From: Anaerosoma tenue
GTDB lineage: Bacteria; Actinomycetota; Coriobacteriia; Anaerosomatales; Anaerosomataceae
Assembly (NCBI RefSeq): GCF_023161965.1
Contig: NZ_JALNTY010000001.1
Coordinates: forward strand, 1 to 64,000
DNA length: 64,000 nucleotides
Direction: 5' to 3'
How positions within the stretch are numbered: position 1 is the first letter of the stretch; every line of letters begins with the position of its first letter. The translations under genes and the position numbers were made by a program. This document shows, in pieces, positions 34,413 through 45,632 of the stretch. Under the pieces are notes generated by a model. It saw only the letters and a list, made by a program, of their open reading frames with translations. It ran no database searches and had not been told where the DNA came from.

Positions 34413-34428
34413 CGGTACGGCGCTTGCT
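34413..34428 (+). promoter_or_regulatory. Candidate sigma-54 promoter before PHP gene
   Basis: CGGTACGGCGCTTGCT matches the -24/-12 consensus (TGGCAC, five bases, TTGCW) except at two positions, with GG and GC ten bases apart. The expected start is near 34439, 30 bases before GTG 34469. It is weaker than the sites at 39860 and 44200. Confidence 0.4.
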
Positions 34429-37502: not shown

Positions 37503-37805
37503 CTACTGGACGCAGCTCGAGTACTTCAGGAAGACCTTGATGGCCTCATCGATCAGCTCGTCCTTGTCGGTGACGCTGTCATCCACGAGGCAGGTCTTCA
37601 TCGAGTAGCCGATGATGTGCAGGCCCACCTGATTGAGCGCCGACTTGGCGGCCATGATCTGGGTGAGCACCGCCTCACAGTCCTTGCCCGATTCGATCAT
37701 GGTCTGGAGGCCCCGCACCTGACCTTCAAGCCGCTTGAGACGGTTGACGATCTTTCGGCGTTCTTCCTCGGTGGGGGTGAGGTTCGTGACCGGAGTCTGG
37801 CTCAT
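37503..37805 (-). CDS. CsoR/CstR-family repressor, CstR-like
   Basis: A 100-residue all-helical repressor of the CsoR/RcnR/FrmR/CstR family: RLKRLEGQVRGLQTMIES is the family core. The two sensor cysteines are Cys43 (GKDCEAVL) and Cys72 (MKTCLVD), 29 residues apart as in CsoR and CstR. The third copper ligand of CsoR, His four residues before the second Cys, is Ser68 here, so a thiol-based persulfide switch is more likely than Cu(I) binding. ATG at 37805 has AAGGAGCC upstream. Its promoter contains operator 2, implying autorepression. Confidence 0.88.
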   Translation of the reverse strand: MSQTPVTNLTPTEEERRKIVNRLKRLEGQVRGLQTMIESGKDCEAVLTQIMAAKSALNQVGLHIIGYSMKTCLVDDSVTDKDELIDEAIKVFLKYSSCVQ

Positions 37806-37863
37806 GAGGGGGCTCCTTGCGCGTACGAGGCTTCGGCGTAGAATCGAGTGAATGTTCGGCACA

Positions 37864-37892
37864 AATATACCCCTAGGGGGTATGTTGGGCAA
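37864..37892 (-). promoter_or_regulatory. Sigma-70-type promoter for the CstR-like repressor gene
   Basis: On the minus strand TTGCCC (37892-37887) and TATATT (37869-37864) are separated by 17 bases. Operator 2 fills the spacer. The start would lie near 37857, about 50 bases before the repressor ATG. On the plus strand, TATGTT at 37881-37886 may serve the transporter gene. Confidence 0.65.
37867..37883. promoter_or_regulatory. CsoR/CstR-type operator 2
   Basis: ATACCCCTAGGGGGTAT has seven-base arms ATACCCC and GGGGTAT with a three-base centre. It lies between the divergent repressor and CDF transporter genes and overlaps the repressor promoter, so both are likely controlled. Confidence 0.87.
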
Positions 37893-39859: not shown

Positions 39860-39875
39860 TGGTACGCTGTTTGCT
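39860..39875 (+). promoter_or_regulatory. Sigma-54 promoter of rpoN
   Basis: TGGTACGCTGTTTGCT matches the -24/-12 consensus (TGGCAC, five bases, TTGCW) at all defined positions but one (C to T). GG and GC are exactly ten bases apart. A start near 39886 leaves a short leader before the rpoN ATG at 39900, implying autoregulation. Confidence 0.7.
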
Positions 39876-39899: not shown

Positions 39900-41291
39900 A
39901 TGGACCTCACCCAACACCCAGAGCTACGGCAGAAAGTCACCCTCTCACCCCAGGTCTACCAGGGGCTGAGCATCCTCGCCATGCCCGTGGCGGAGCTTCA
40001 CACGCTCATCGAGAACGAGATCCTGGAGAATCCCGTCCTCGAGGTGGAGGAGGATGACTACGAGTCCGTCGAGAGCGAGGAGCGGCTCGAGACCTCCGAG
40101 GAGGAGCGGGCCTGGGACGAGTGGCTCGACCAGTACGAGGAGCTCGAGCGGATGGACGGTCCCTCCACGCGCGAGCCCGTGGCCGATGATGTGAACACAG
40201 AGGAGTTCGTGGGCGGTGTGGTGTCGTTCACGGAGTACCTTCTCGAGCAGCTCGCGATGATGGATATCGATGACGACCTCGAGGTCGCCGCCAAGGCGGT
40301 GATCGGATCGCTGGATGGCGATGGCTTCTTCGTGGGGACCGAGGACGAGATCGCCGCGATCGCCGGAGTCACGCTCGAGGTCGCGGTGCAGGCGCTGGGG
40401 GTCGTCCAGCAGCTGGATCCCCCGGGCGTGGGCGCCCGGTCCGTACCGGAGGCCTTGCGCATACAGGCTGAGACGGTGGGGCTCGACACGCCGCTTCTGC
40501 TCGCGACGGTCGACGGCCATCTCGATGACGTGGCTGCGAGCCGGTACAAGAAGATCGCGCGCGCATTGGGAAGCGATGAGGCGTCGGTGCGGGAGACGGT
40601 CGAGATGCTCCGGACCCTGAACCCCCGGCCGGCGGGCGCGTTCTCGCCCGGTTCGGCGCCGGCGTACGTGGTGCCGGATGTGACCGTCAGACGATTCGAC
40701 GACGAGTGGCTCGTGCTGCCCAACACCGAGGCGGTGCCAGGGCTGCGCGTGAACTCGCGCTATCGCTCGCTGCTGCGCTCCGACTCATCGGCAGACGACG
40801 AGACCCGTCGCTATCTCAAGGACAAGGTCCGTCAGGCTGAGAGCTTCATGCGCAACGTGGACCGGCGGCGGGACACGGTAAGCCGGATCGCCGAGATCGT
40901 GCTCGAAGTGCAGCGCGACTTCTTCGAGGACGGGCAGGGTGATCTGCGCCCGCTGCGCCTCGAGGACGTGGCGGTGGAGCTGGGCGTCCACCTCTCCACG
41001 GTGAGCAGGGGCGTGACCGGCAAGTACATGGCTACTCCGTACGGGCTGTTCGAGCTCAAACACTTCTTCTCGGGGGGCTACCGCACCTCGACAGGGATGG
41101 ACGTGGCCGCCACCACCGTCAAGAAGCGCCTGAAGGAGCTCCTTGAGGCCGAGGACCCGGAGAAGCCGATGTCGGACCAGCGTCTCGCCGACGCCCTCTC
41201 GGAACAGGGAGTGGACGTGGCGCGGCGGACGGTGGCCAAGTACCGGGAGGAGCTCGGGGTCGAGCCTTCGTGGGCGAGAAAGCGGCGATGA
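39900..41291 (+). CDS. rpoN: RNA polymerase sigma-54 factor
   Basis: A 463-residue sigma-54, which binds core polymerase and -24/-12 promoters and needs an ATP-driven activator. The N-terminal activator-contact region starts TQHPELRQKVTLSPQVYQGL, and an acidic region follows (about 50-100). The central core-binding part contains LDPPGVGARSVPEAL and LRTLNPRPAGAFS. The C-terminal DNA-binding domain ends with the RpoN box ARRTVAKYREE near residue 440. It is rare in Actinomycetota-like genomes. ATG 39900. The kinase gene overlaps its stop by four bases. Confidence 0.95.
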   Translation: MDLTQHPELRQKVTLSPQVYQGLSILAMPVAELHTLIENEILENPVLEVEEDDYESVESEERLETSEEERAWDEWLDQYEELERMDGPSTREPVADDVNTEEFVGGVVSFTEYLLEQLAMMDIDDDLEVAAKAVIGSLDGDGFFVGTEDEIAAIAGVTLEVAVQALGVVQQLDPPGVGARSVPEALRIQAETVGLDTPLLLATVDGHLDDVAASRYKKIARALGSDEASVRETVEMLRTLNPRPAGAFSPGSAPAYVVPDVTVRRFDDEWLVLPNTEAVPGLRVNSRYRSLLRSDSSADDETRRYLKDKVRQAESFMRNVDRRRDTVSRIAEIVLEVQRDFFEDGQGDLRPLRLEDVAVELGVHLSTVSRGVTGKYMATPYGLFELKHFFSGGYRTSTGMDVAATTVKKRLKELLEAEDPEKPMSDQRLADALSEQGVDVARRTVAKYREELGVEPSWARKRR

Positions 41292-42811
41292 TCATGCGCG
41301 GGCGGGGATCCGGACACGAACGGCGTGTCACGCGGCCGGGTGAGGCGGTGCGGCACGATGTGGTGCTGATCGTCCTGCTCCTCGCCATGGTGACTGCGCT
41401 GCACCTGTTCACCACGAGCGCCCCTGAGATGATGTCGGTACACCTGCTGTACCGCAAGCTCTACTACGTGCCGATCATCTACGCCGGTTTCGTGTTCGGA
41501 TGGCGCGGGGGCCTCATCGTGGCCGTTGCCGCGTCACTGCTGTTCGGTCCGCATGCCCACACGTCCATGGGCGGACTCGTGGGTCCTCACGTCGACAACC
41601 TGTACGAGATGGTGATGTTCCTCGCGGTCGGCTTCCTGTTCGGATGGTTGCGCGACCTCGACGAGCGCAAGGCCTTCGACCTCCGGCGTGTCAGCCTCGA
41701 GCTCGAGGACGCCTACCACACGCTGGAGGAACGGGCGATTCAGCTCGTCACGATCCAGCACTACATGCAGGCCATCCTGCAGTCGATCACGTCGGGGGTC
41801 ATCACAGTAGGCCCCGACGGCTCGGTGGCGACCGTCAACAGTGCCGCTGAGCGTGCGCTCGGCATGAGCGAGGACGAGATGGTGCCCAGGCGGCTGGGCG
41901 CGTTGTTCAGGGACGGCGGCGGTCTCGACGCCGCGTTGCGCCACGTCCTGCGGGGTATCGCCGACAGGCTCGTGAGCGAGACGACGCTGGAGACCATGAG
42001 CGGCAAGACGTTGCACGCGCGCGTGTCCATCGCGCGCATGAGGGACGACCAGGGGCGGGTTCTCGGCGCGGTGGTGAGCATCGAAGACGTCTCCGAGGTG
42101 CGCGCGCTCACCGACCAGCTGATCCGCGCCGATCGGCTTGCGGCGATGGGCGAGCTGACGGCAGGCGTGGCGCATGAGGTGCGCAACCCGCTTGGGATCA
42201 TCAAGGCGTCGGTGCAGCTGGTAGAGGAGTCGGGCGGGGACCCCAAACGCATGGCCGAGGTCACCCGCGTCATCAAGCAGGAGATCGACCGCCTCGACCA
42301 CGTGATCAAGGCGCTCCTCGACTTCGGGCGCCCCTCGGCTCCTGCGCTGCGTCCGACAGACGTGGGCGCCGTGCTGGACGACGTGGTCCTCTTCACCCGG
42401 CGGTTCGCGCGTGAGGCCAGCGTGGCGATCGAGGTGGAGCGCGCCGAGGGCCTGTCACCCGTGATGGCCGACGCGGACCAGCTCAAGCAGGTGCTCGTCA
42501 ATCTCGTCTCCAACGCCGTACAGGCCATGGGCGAGACCGGTGGCACGATCCGTGTCACCGCCTACGACGACGCGCGCGACGTGTACATCTCGGTCGCCGA
42601 CTCGGGTCCCGGGATGGCCCCGGAGGTCATGGAGAAGGTGTTCGACCCGTTCTTCTCCACGCGCGACGGCGGTACCGGCCTCGGGCTCACCATCGTGCAT
42701 CGCATCATCGACCAACACGGGGGCCACATCGAGGTCGCGAGCGCACCGGGTGCGGGGACCACGTTCACCGTGGCCCTCCCGGTTGCGAAGGAGAGAGGGG
42801 AAAGCCGATGA
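41288..42811 (+). CDS. Membrane sensor histidine kinase, NtrB/AtoS-type
   Basis: A 507-residue kinase. Residues ~20-125 hold about four membrane helices with small loops, a possible membrane-signal sensor. A PAS domain follows (about 160-275, ITSGVITVGPDGSVATVN). The dimerisation helix carries the phosphorylated His in GVAHEVRNPLG near residue 295. The ATPase domain shows the N-box NLVSNAVQAMGE, DSGPGM, and GGTGLGLTIV. ATG 41288 overlaps the rpoN stop (ATGA); GTG 41270 is an alternative. The partner is the activator encoded next, overlapping by four bases. Confidence 0.92.
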   Translation: MIMRGRGSGHERRVTRPGEAVRHDVVLIVLLLAMVTALHLFTTSAPEMMSVHLLYRKLYYVPIIYAGFVFGWRGGLIVAVAASLLFGPHAHTSMGGLVGPHVDNLYEMVMFLAVGFLFGWLRDLDERKAFDLRRVSLELEDAYHTLEERAIQLVTIQHYMQAILQSITSGVITVGPDGSVATVNSAAERALGMSEDEMVPRRLGALFRDGGGLDAALRHVLRGIADRLVSETTLETMSGKTLHARVSIARMRDDQGRVLGAVVSIEDVSEVRALTDQLIRADRLAAMGELTAGVAHEVRNPLGIIKASVQLVEESGGDPKRMAEVTRVIKQEIDRLDHVIKALLDFGRPSAPALRPTDVGAVLDDVVLFTRRFAREASVAIEVERAEGLSPVMADADQLKQVLVNLVSNAVQAMGETGGTIRVTAYDDARDVYISVADSGPGMAPEVMEKVFDPFFSTRDGGTGLGLTIVHRIIDQHGGHIEVASAPGAGTTFTVALPVAKERGESR

Positions 42812-44157
42812 ATGGTCGTGTGCTGATAGCCGACGACGAGAAGAACATGAGATGGGTGCTGAGCCAGGCGCTCGAGGCGGAGGGCTACGAGGTGGTGGAG
42901 GCGGTCGACGGCAAGGAGGCGCTGTCGGCTATAGCGGAGCAGGAGCCGGGGCTGCTCATCCTCGATCACAAGATGCCCGCGCCCGACGGCATGGAGGTGC
43001 TCCGGCGGCTGCGCGCGAAGGGTCATCGGTTCCCCGTGATCATGCTCACGGCGCATGGCAATGTGCAGACGGCTGTAGAGGCGATGAAGGCTGGCGCCAA
43101 CGAGTACCTCACCAAGCCGTTCGACCTGGACGAACTGAAGCTGGGTATCGAGAAGGCGCTCAGGGTGGAGGCGCTCGCTGCCGAGGTGGACCGGCTGCGG
43201 GCCGAGCTCGATCGGGACTGGGACATCGAGGGCATCGTGGCCGCCGACCCCACCATGCTCGAACTCCTCGGCACGATCGAGAAGGTGGCGCCGACGAACG
43301 CCACCGTCATGGTCTACGGCGAGTCGGGCACCGGTAAGGAGCTCGTCGCCCGAGCGCTTCACCGTCTCTCGGGACGGTCGGCCAAGCCGTTCATCTCGAT
43401 CAGCGCAGGGGCGTTGCCGGAGACGCTGCTCGAGAGCGAGCTCTTCGGTTATGAGAAGGGTGCGTTCACGGGCGCCACGACCGCCAAGCCGGGACGTTTC
43501 GAGATGGCCAACGGCGGCACCCTGTTCCTCGATGAGATCGGCGACATCACTGCGGCGGTGCAGGTGAAGCTCTTGCGCGTGCTGCAGGAGCGCACCTTCG
43601 AGCGCCTCGGCGGGACCCGCAGTATCGAAGTCGATGTGCGGGTCGTGGCCGCGACCAATCGCGACCTGCAGCAGCTGATCGCTGAAGGCGCCTTCCGCGA
43701 GGACCTCTTCTACCGGCTGAACGTGGTGCCGCTCACCATCCCGCCGCTCCGGAAGCGGCAGGCGGACATACCGCCGCTTGTCGCCCACTTCCTGGAGAAG
43801 TTCGGTGCCGGAGAGCGCACCATCTCACCGCAGGCCATGGAGGCGCTCGTCGCCTATCAGTGGCCCGGCAACGTGCGGGAGCTCGAGAACACCATGGAGC
43901 GGGTGACGATCCTGTCCCACAGCGATGTGATCGAGGCGGAGGACCTGCCCGCCGAGGTGCGTGCCGGCGTCGGCCTTGCGGGGGCGGGCACGCGGTGCTT
44001 CGTCCTCCCCGAGGACGGTCTCGACCTGGAGGAGACCGAGCTCGACTTCATCCGTCAGGCGCTGGAGCGAGCGGGGGGCAACGTCCCCAAAGCGGCGAAG
44101 CTGCTGGGGCTCACCACCAAGACCCTCGAGGTGAGGATGGAGCGGTACGGCCTGTGA
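42808..44157 (+). CDS. Sigma-54-dependent response regulator, NtrC-type
   Basis: A 449-residue enhancer-binding activator. The receiver domain (1-120) has DDEKN, the phosphorylated Asp near 52 in ILDHKMP and the Lys in LTKPF. The AAA+ domain (about 145-370) has Walker A GESGTGKE, the sigma-54 contact loop GAFTGA near residue 220, and Walker [13 protein letters not shown] Fis-type helix-turn-helix ends the protein ([23 protein letters not shown], read across the turn). With rpoN and the kinase it forms one translationally coupled operon. The nearest predicted target promoter is 43 bases downstream. Confidence 0.95.
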
Positions 44158-44199
44158 TCCCGGGATGCAGGTCACGTTGTGGATGCGGATGCGCGTCCT

Positions 44200-44215
44200 T
44201 GGCACGTCGCTTGCA
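44200..44215 (+). promoter_or_regulatory. Sigma-54 promoter, perfect consensus
   Basis: TGGCACGTCGCTTGCA fits TGGCAC-N5-TTGCW at every defined position. I saw no other perfect match on this strand of the window. The expected start near 44226 precedes GGAG at 44247-44250 and GTG 44258. A palindrome ATCCCGGGAT at 44157-44166 lies about 63 bases upstream of that start and is a possible activator site. Confidence 0.85.
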
Positions 44216-44257: not shown

Positions 44258-44608
44258 GTGAAGCATCTGCGTACCTACAAAGTGGTCGCCCTTGCAGCTG
44301 TCGCTCTGCTCGCCGTCACCGTGGCAACCGTGTCAGCCGTGAATCATGCGTCGGAGCACGCCGGCTGCGCGGTACTCACCCCCTTCAGCGGCAGCACCAT
44401 CGCCACGTCGCTCATCGTCCTGGCGGTTGCCGGGCGGGCGCTCATGCGGCAGCGCAGGACCGGGTCGGACGGGCTTGACGAGCGCACGGAGCGGCACGCG
44501 TGCGGTTCGTGCGGTCATGAGGTCTACGGCGCGTGGCGCATGTGTCCCTACTGTGGCGCGATGCTTGAGAGCGGCAGACGGATCGATGGAAGCGAGGTCG
44601 GCTCATGA
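44258..44608 (+). CDS. Two-helix membrane protein with C-terminal zinc ribbon
   Basis: A 116-residue protein with two membrane helices (about residues 7-26 and 45-62) and a cytoplasmic zinc ribbon: HACGSCGHEV and MCPYCGAML. A loop with Glu-His and Cys (SEHAGCAV) lies between the helices. GTG 44258 after GGAG is chosen; an earlier in-frame ATG at 44165 lies upstream of the sigma-54 promoter and would be left off the transcript. The HMA gene overlaps the stop by four bases. The function is unknown, but its promoter makes it the first predicted target of the adjacent activator. Confidence 0.75.
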   Translation: MKHLRTYKVVALAAVALLAVTVATVSAVNHASEHAGCAVLTPFSGSTIATSLIVLAVAGRALMRQRRTGSDGLDERTERHACGSCGHEVYGAWRMCPYCGAMLESGRRIDGSEVGS

Positions 44609-44826
44609 CCACCACACAGCGGTTCGTGACGACGGGCATGCACTGCCACTCGTGCTCGATGCTGATCCAGATGGATGTGGGCGGTATCGACGGCGTCGAG
44701 GCCGTCGTTTCGGATCATCGCACGGGGATCACCGAGGTCACCTATGATGACAGCGTTCTCGACCCTGAGCAGATCGTCGAGGCGATCGTGAAGGCCGGAT
44801 ACGGGGCGGAGCTCGCTGGGGACTGA
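44605..44826 (+). CDS. Heavy-metal-associated (HMA) domain protein
   Basis: A 73-residue single HMA domain, the fold of CopZ/MerP metal carriers. The binding motif GMHCHSCSM (GMxCxxC) sits near residues 11-19, and VEAVVSD, ITEVTYDD and EAIVKAGYGAEL complete the four-strand fold. These proteins bind Cu(I) or another soft metal through the two Cys and deliver it to a partner. ATG 44605 overlaps the upstream gene by four bases. No copper ATPase is nearby; the next gene is ccdA. Confidence 0.88.
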   Translation: MTTTQRFVTTGMHCHSCSMLIQMDVGGIDGVEAVVSDHRTGITEVTYDDSVLDPEQIVEAIVKAGYGAELAGD

Positions 44827-44847: not shown

Positions 44848-44864
44848 ATACCCCCACGGGGTAT
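44848..44864. promoter_or_regulatory. CsoR/CstR-type operator 3 at ccdA promoter
   Basis: ATACCCCCACGGGGTAT has the same seven-base arms as operators 1 and 2 with a three-base centre. It overlaps a likely promoter: TGGACG at 44838-44843 and TATAAG at 44862-44867, spacer 18. It gives ccdA its own repressor-controlled start downstream of the sigma-54 promoter. Confidence 0.85.
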
Positions 44865-44906: not shown

Positions 44907-45632
44907 GTGAGCGAGACCGCTTCGCTGTTCGCGGCGCTGGGCGCCGGATTCATCACGTTCCTCTCACCATGCGTCCTGCCGTTGATCCCCGGGTATGTCG
45001 CGTTCATGACCGGCATGACATCCGCGGAGTTGACCTCTTCTGAGCGAAAGACGTCGCAGGTCCTCATCCCATCGCTGCTGTTCGTTCTCGGTTTCAGCAT
45101 CGTCTTCGTGGCCCTTGGCGCGTCCGCGTCGGTTGTGGGCTCCTTCCTGAGCCAGTACAGCTCGGTGCTCGAGAAGGTCGCCGGGGGCATCATCATGCTG
45201 CTCGGGTTCTTCATGCTCGGCATCATCAAAGTGCCGTGGCTCTATGGCGAGGCGCGGTTCGAGATGCACAAGGCCAAGCGGTTCGGCGGGCTTGCCGCAC
45301 TCGTGATGGGTATGGCATTCGCATTCGGCTGGTCGCCGTGCGTGGGTCCGGTGCTGGGCTCCATCCTCATGGTCGCTGCCAACAGCGCCGAGGCGGGCCG
45401 TGGCGCCCTGCTTCTGGGCGTGTACTCGATCGGCCTGGGCGTACCGTTCGTGCTGGTGGCGCTGCTGTTGGGCAAGGTCAAGCCGGTGCTCAACTGGCTC
45501 AACCGGCACGCTCTGATGATCAACCGCATCGCCGGCGTCGTGCTGATGACCCTCGGACTGCTGATCCTGACCGGGTGGATCGGACCGGTCGTGGGGTGGC
45601 TCTCGATGTTCATCCCCAAGGTCGGTGGCTGA
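44907..45632 (+). CDS. ccdA: CcdA-type thiol-disulfide transporter
   Basis: A 241-residue membrane protein with six to seven helices that passes reducing equivalents from cytoplasmic thioredoxin to the outside, in cytochrome c maturation or other thiol pathways. The two redox Cys are in LSPCVLPLIPGY near residue 22 and WSPCVGPVLG near 146. GTG 44907 follows GAAGGGAG. No cytochrome c assembly gene is nearby; the shared operator with trxA suggests the two work together under thiol or sulfur stress. Confidence 0.9.
   Translation: MSETASLFAALGAGFITFLSPCVLPLIPGYVAFMTGMTSAELTSSERKTSQVLIPSLLFVLGFSIVFVALGASASVVGSFLSQYSSVLEKVAGGIIMLLGFFMLGIIKVPWLYGEARFEMHKAKRFGGLAALVMGMAFAFGWSPCVGPVLGSILMVAANSAEAGRGALLLGVYSIGLGVPFVLVALLLGKVKPVLNWLNRHALMINRIAGVVLMTLGLLILTGWIGPVVGWLSMFIPKVGG

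Follow-up and report, generated by a model that had tools for sequence, protein, structure and literature searches.

In Escherichia coli, the two-component system ZraSR mediates a metal response through sigma-54 and is autoregulated. Sigma-54 activators are also known to drive more than one small RNA copy, as in the LuxO-Qrr system of Vibrio and with GlmY/GlmZ of enterobacteria. In Myxococcus xanthus, the NtrC-type pair CorSR (curA) is linked to sigma-54 promoters and to the control of copA (PMC3707914). Among small RNAs, alpha-r14/NfeR1 and CcsR (RF02344 and RF02791) form hairpins that expose C-rich loops of the CCUCC type, and NfeR1 pairs with translation starts (PMC10746234). Published surveys describe Actinobacteria as being without sigma-54 (PMC3162934; PMC12316311).

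Here, we analyzed a window of 64,000 nucleotides from Anaerosoma tenue together with genomes of its order, Anaerosomatales, in the class Coriobacteriia, to which named relatives assign it. The window carries an rpoN-kinase-activator operon that is followed by a -24/-12-like element at 44200-44215. We propose, with a probability of about 0.8, that this element is the sigma-54 promoter of a small, self-contained stress regulon that is autoregulated and has a small RNA arm.

The regulator operon

39860-39875, plus strand: TGGTACGCTGTTTGCT, predicted sigma-54 site (class A), 24 nt 5' of the rpoN ATG
39900-41291, plus strand: rpoN, sigma-54, with AID, CBD, and DBD (Pfam) and the RpoN box ARRTVAKYRE
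41270-42811, plus strand: sensor histidine kinase with an N-terminal membrane region, PAS, HisKA, and HATPase
42808-44157, plus strand: sigma-54 activator (bEBP) with a receiver, AAA+ with GAFTGA, and a Fis-type HTH

The rpoN product scored 395.5 bits against TIGR02395 (cutoff, 277), and the activator, at 240 bits, is the sole true bEBP in the genome, the other AAA+ proteins scoring 35 bits or less. The genome thus encodes the machinery for sigma-54 promoters, in the form of a sigma-54 that has all three domains and the RpoN box and a GAFTGA-bearing bEBP. For the kinase, the top NCBIfam model was AtoS, followed by ZraS, both under cutoff. Kinase and regulator scored highest against the AtoS/AtoC, ZraS/ZraR, and NtrC models, none of which reached its cutoff; for ZraS/ZraR, the scores were 228.9 of 479 bits and 396.5 of 760 bits. 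No metal-binding sensor domain is recognizable in the kinase. In other Actinomycetota lineages (L312-L315), the same rpoN-kinase-activator trio lies beside unrelated genes (ABC transporter, peptidase).

The sequence-only reading had called sigma-54 rare in this lineage. This holds for the phylum, in which 18 of 396 sampled Actinomycetota genomes scored above the family cutoff, but not for the order, in which sigma-54 was found in 66 of 69 Anaerosomatales genomes. Nearly all of the order has one rpoN copy per genome, and exactly one strong bEBP was present in 53 of 65 genomes. The order of the locus (CsoR, CDF, EamA, RpoN, kinase, activator, zinc ribbon, HMA, CcdA, RsbU, STAS) is largely syntenic across Anaerosomatales.

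The site at 44200-44215

44157-44166, no strand: palindrome ATCCCGGGAT, probably incidental, its first base shared with the activator stop codon
44200-44215, plus strand: TGGCACGTCGCTTGCA, predicted sigma-54 -24/-12 promoter (class B), ahead of the zinc-ribbon and HMA genes
44258-44608, plus strand: 116-aa membrane protein with a C-terminal zinc ribbon (CxxC...CPYCG), first gene of the promoter
44605-44826, plus strand: HMA-domain metallochaperone-like protein (CopZ-like, MHCxSC; PF00403, 2.6e-12)

By motif comparison, TGGCACGTCGCTTGCA fits TGGCAC-N5-TTGCW at every defined base; it also fits TGGCACG-N4-TTGCW, with a T preceding, and its GG and GC elements are 10 bp apart, the spacing of a -24/-12 promoter. 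The activator stop ends at 44157, leaving 42 nt before the site, and 42 nt 3' of it lies a GTG start that is served by a GGAG ribosome site. Both the perfect match behind the regulator operon and its closeness to the activator stop, as originally described, were therefore borne out. The palindrome noted upstream is indeed present; however, it is absent from the same-genus relative L066 and from other close relatives and so is not conserved.

By genome counts alone, TGGCACGTCGCTTGCA is unremarkable. The 2.1-Mb genome contains two perfect TGGCAC-N5-TTGCW matches, as it does of the reversed control, and with up to one mismatch allowed, the window was expected to hold 1.41 matches and holds 2. The other perfect match in the genome precedes a conserved small RNA. 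A genome-wide count had been suggested as a measure of how special the site is; it is special not by number but by conservation. We scored 57 Anaerosomatales loci for site B (TGGCAY-N5-TTGCA) with at most one mismatch and at most 90 nt from the activator stop, using the reversed pattern as a control. The site was present in 53 of the 57 loci and the control in none. In 52 of these 53 loci, the site is followed by a CxxC..CxxC zinc-ribbon protein, with a membrane segment detected in 48 of the 53. The earlier view that the site leads into the zinc-ribbon membrane protein and the HMA protein is supported. The HMA gene overlaps the stop of the zinc-ribbon gene by 4 nt, and GMHC.SC is conserved in the HMA protein across relatives. 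Site B and the zinc-ribbon gene were both undetected in L106, L107, and L120.

Site A (TGGTAY-N5-TTGCW) was found before rpoN, with at most one mismatch, in 56 of 60 relatives and the reversed pattern in none, and both half-sites are at a fixed spacing across relatives. When sites A and B were aligned, motif positions carried up to 2 bits, the N5 spacer little, and the flanks mostly 0.1 to 0.3 bits; at site B, the -24/-12 elements are thus kept in place while the flanks drift. The element at 44200-44215 is very probably a real sigma-54 promoter, and site A points to autoregulation of the rpoN-kinase-activator operon. Such order-wide conserved promoters argue against the published absence of sigma-54 from Actinobacteria. 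In L120 (G053), the rpoN-kinase-activator genes are kept behind a degenerate site before rpoN, but we detected no zinc ribbon, HMA, CcdA, site B, or small RNAs.

Control of ccdA

44849-44863, no strand: CsoR-type operator TACCCCCACGGGGTA, then TAA, between the HMA gene and ccdA
44907-45632, plus strand: CcdA/DsbD-type membrane protein
37503-37841, minus strand: CsoR/CstR-family repressor ORF (PF02583), start probably internal

The ccdA gene had been named as a possible further target of the site. It is probably not a simple sigma-54 target, and at most a secondary one, because the gene is preceded by a CsoR-type operator of its own at 44849. This operator merges with a -10-like element about 58 nt 5' of the ccdA start, and the arrangement recurs in relatives, many of which have a CsoR-type operator about 50 to 110 nt before ccdA. 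The operator TACCCCCACGGGGTA had 0 control matches in the window. The CsoR/CstR ORF is divergent from a CDF transporter, and an operator of the same type, conserved in the order, lies at the boundary of the two genes (37868-37882). In the translation of the CsoR/CstR ORF, read by eye, the His-ligand position of the Cys-His-Cys set appears to be Ser, which would resemble CstR.

Further sites in the genome

G000:C3:147079: site C, perfect TGGCATATCGGTTGCA, 5' of genes for a small secreted protein, a DsbD_2-cupredoxin protein, and an ATPase of the CopA type
G000:C3:203382-203478: C-rich small RNA of about 97 nt with a perfect sigma-54 site
G000:C2:304150-304247: paralogous C-rich small RNA of about 97 nt with a perfect sigma-54 site
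G000:C3:301185: sigma-54 site F, about 100 nt before clpC
G000:C1:890653: perfect -24/-12 match within tilS, 410 nt 5' of hpt-ftsH
34413-34428, plus strand: possible sigma-54 site CGGTACGGCGCTTGCT that deviates at one position and lies 40 nt 5' of a PHP-domain gene

In 34 of 41 separate loci, site C, with one mismatch or none, was present about 430 to 610 nt 5' of DsbD_2, which is followed by CopA. The ATPase scored 618.6 bits against the copper-ATPase model TIGR01511 (cutoff, 397). In L084, L091, L094, L102, and L103, DsbD_2 follows site B immediately within the rpoN locus, and in four of these five, CopA is there as well; both targets are therefore tied to one regulon. Together, a kinase with an NtrC-type regulator and sigma-54 sites before metal-export genes form the arrangement seen in CorSR and ZraSR.

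In each small RNA unit, a sigma-54 site is followed by a stretch of about 97 nt that contains two hairpins, C-rich loops, and a terminator. A covariance model from which the promoter had been excluded matched 66 of 69 genomes, usually in exactly two copies. A perfect sigma-54 site preceded the small RNA core by 34 to 37 nt in 30 of 30 loci; at 14 further loci, the site was perfect in 12 and had at most one mismatch in 13, giving 43 of 44 copies scored. Both sides had changed in 8 of 25 helix pairs among nine sequences, which are compensatory changes, and the loci have a terminator hairpin with a T-run, as expected of an intrinsic terminator. Rfam returned subthreshold scores only, the best being 30.2 bits for L233 against ar14 (RF02344; gathering cutoff, 58.8). 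A match to CcsR1 in L235 lies elsewhere in that locus. With no Rfam match above threshold, the two small RNAs apparently constitute a new, undescribed RNA family, and their loops suggest an anti-Shine-Dalgarno-like action.

The clpC site was perfect in 24 of 30 loci and had at most one mismatch in 28 of 30, at about 110 to 150 nt 5' of the gene. A sigma-70-like -10 element is found downstream of the sigma-54 site at G000:C3:301185. The site inside tilS was perfect in 5 of 9 genomes and similarly placed in others, which is only suggestive of a further sigma-54 target; it was first taken for a coding coincidence, but given its repeated GCA and TTG codons and its position ahead of hpt-ftsH in several genomes, it may be either. 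In G008, the ortholog of the PHP-domain gene is preceded by a perfect site at a distance of 37 nt, an observation confined to two genomes. Two other candidates were rejected: C4:31885 is inside a coding ORF, and the L021/L135 pair reads as coding.

Assigned by coordinates, 45 of 69 perfect genome-wide matches in nine genomes fall at six conserved positions, as do 6 of the 8 in this genome. An early reading, in which the regulon consisted of the rpoN locus and the copper genes and the rest was chance, was dropped once matches from the nine genomes had been compared. The 44200 site, earlier named as the direct target of a two-component sigma-54 system, is thus one of at least six conserved sites and not the sole target. 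The analysis showed the sites, their conservation and linkage, and, by homology, the gene families; it also showed that a genome has one sigma-54 and, as a rule, a single activator.

We assigned the activator to the sites because it is the sole bEBP in 53 of 65 genomes and no enhancer was found. We looked for a shared enhancer, in the form of dyads and k-mers, on both sides of classes A, B, and C and then upstream of all five classes, including the small RNAs and clpC; none was found in either search. The inverted repeat TGAGTG-N4-CACTCA was seen before clpC alone (21 of 28); at G000:C3:301185, it lies directly upstream of the sigma-54 site.

A proposed regulon and its alternatives

From these sequences, we infer where transcription starts, that it depends on RpoN and the activator, what the signal is, and how the small RNAs act, as follows. 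The neighboring kinase would respond to a stress, in all likelihood an excess of copper or a related metal or thiol stress, and phosphorylate the neighboring activator, whose AAA+ ring would open sigma-54-bound RNA polymerase at the conserved promoters, about six in number. Site A would drive the rpoN-kinase-activator operon itself, providing positive feedback; site B, the zinc-ribbon membrane protein and the HMA chaperone; site C, the operon of the secreted protein, the DsbD_2/cupredoxin protein, and the CopA copper ATPase; sites D and E, the two copies of the C-rich anti-Shine-Dalgarno-like small RNA; and site F, clpC. We lean slightly toward the fuller version of this scheme, in which one sigma-54, one activator, and six or seven promoters, possibly enhancer-less, couple copper export, protein quality control, and a small RNA pair.

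Both clpC and the small RNA pair point to a stress wider than copper. The copper link may be indirect because the kinase has no recognizable metal-sensor domain and the trio elsewhere adjoins unrelated genes; since the trio stands beside other genes outside the order, the signal may be broader. It is possible, at clearly less than even odds, that the regulon is a general response to envelope or protein damage with a nonmetal signal, copper export being only one output. Such a response would accommodate clpC, the two small RNAs, the tilS site ahead of hpt-ftsH, and the nonmetal genes beside the trio in other Actinomycetota. However, HMA, cupredoxin, DsbD, and CopA proteins are encoded in the two protein operons with the closest linkage to the regulator. 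Copper, too, harms proteins and thiols, and clpC is therefore compatible with both explanations.

The CopA operon and HMA protein could instead serve copper-enzyme assembly rather than detoxification, given that DsbD_2, cupredoxin, and CopA-like ATPases are also found in oxidase assembly clusters. We regard this as unlikely because COX1 was not found in this genome or in most of its relatives (54 of 69 genomes of the order), whereas DsbD_2 is present in 62 of 69.

At the level of single sites, several families read TGGTATATT or TGGTATAAT before rpoN, a good extended -10, and the element there might be a sigma-70 extended -10 (TGnTATAAT) and not a sigma-54 site. This is improbable in that the TTGC half-site is invariant at a fixed spacing, and the family to which the window belongs has TGGTACG, many of its members carrying a TATAAT-like box of their own farther upstream; the element at site A may serve both sigma-54 and sigma-70. 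That the 44200 match arose by chance in GC-rich DNA, as the equal number of perfect reversed-control matches in the genome would allow, has a negligible probability and is already refuted by the conservation of its position in relatives (53 of 57, versus 0 for the control). A sigma-54 promoter within an autoregulated stress regulon is the reading we retain for 44200-44215.

Comparison with known systems

The small size of the regulon makes it a clean case for reading a near-complete sigma-54 regulon from sequence, and the targets of the paired small RNAs are testable in cultivated Anaerosomatales (PMC9686372). These RNAs share C-rich hairpin loops of the anti-Shine-Dalgarno type with alpha-r14/NfeR1 and CcsR. 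They differ from these families in clade, in having two hairpins instead of three, and in their sigma-54 promoter, and they gave weak scores only. As with Qrr and GlmY/GlmZ, a sigma-54 activator would drive more than one copy of a small RNA. To Qrr and GlmY/GlmZ, we saw no sequence relation, the loops here being C-rich and anti-Shine-Dalgarno-like.

With ZraSR, this locus has in common a sigma-54 two-component system that is apparently autoregulated and probably responds to metal, and its kinase and regulator resemble ZraS/ZraR and AtoS/AtoC. However, the sensor part is unlike ZraS, the targets are others, and the scores are under the curated ZraS/ZraR cutoffs. By analogy, the kinase-activator pair would work like ZraSR and CorSR, yet it should not be filed as ZraSR.

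Of the described systems, CorSR from M. xanthus comes closest. Both are two-component systems with a sigma-54-interacting regulator and predicted sigma-54 promoters, a cupredoxin protein and a CopA ATPase are among the targets of CorSR and among the proposed targets here, and in both the regulator genes are within the cluster (PMC3707914). In contrast, CorS has a periplasmic sensor with one membrane span, and M. xanthus is a deltaproteobacterium (PMC3707914). Here, the sigma factor is itself in the operon, with its own predicted site, and the proposed regulon adds clpC and two small RNAs.
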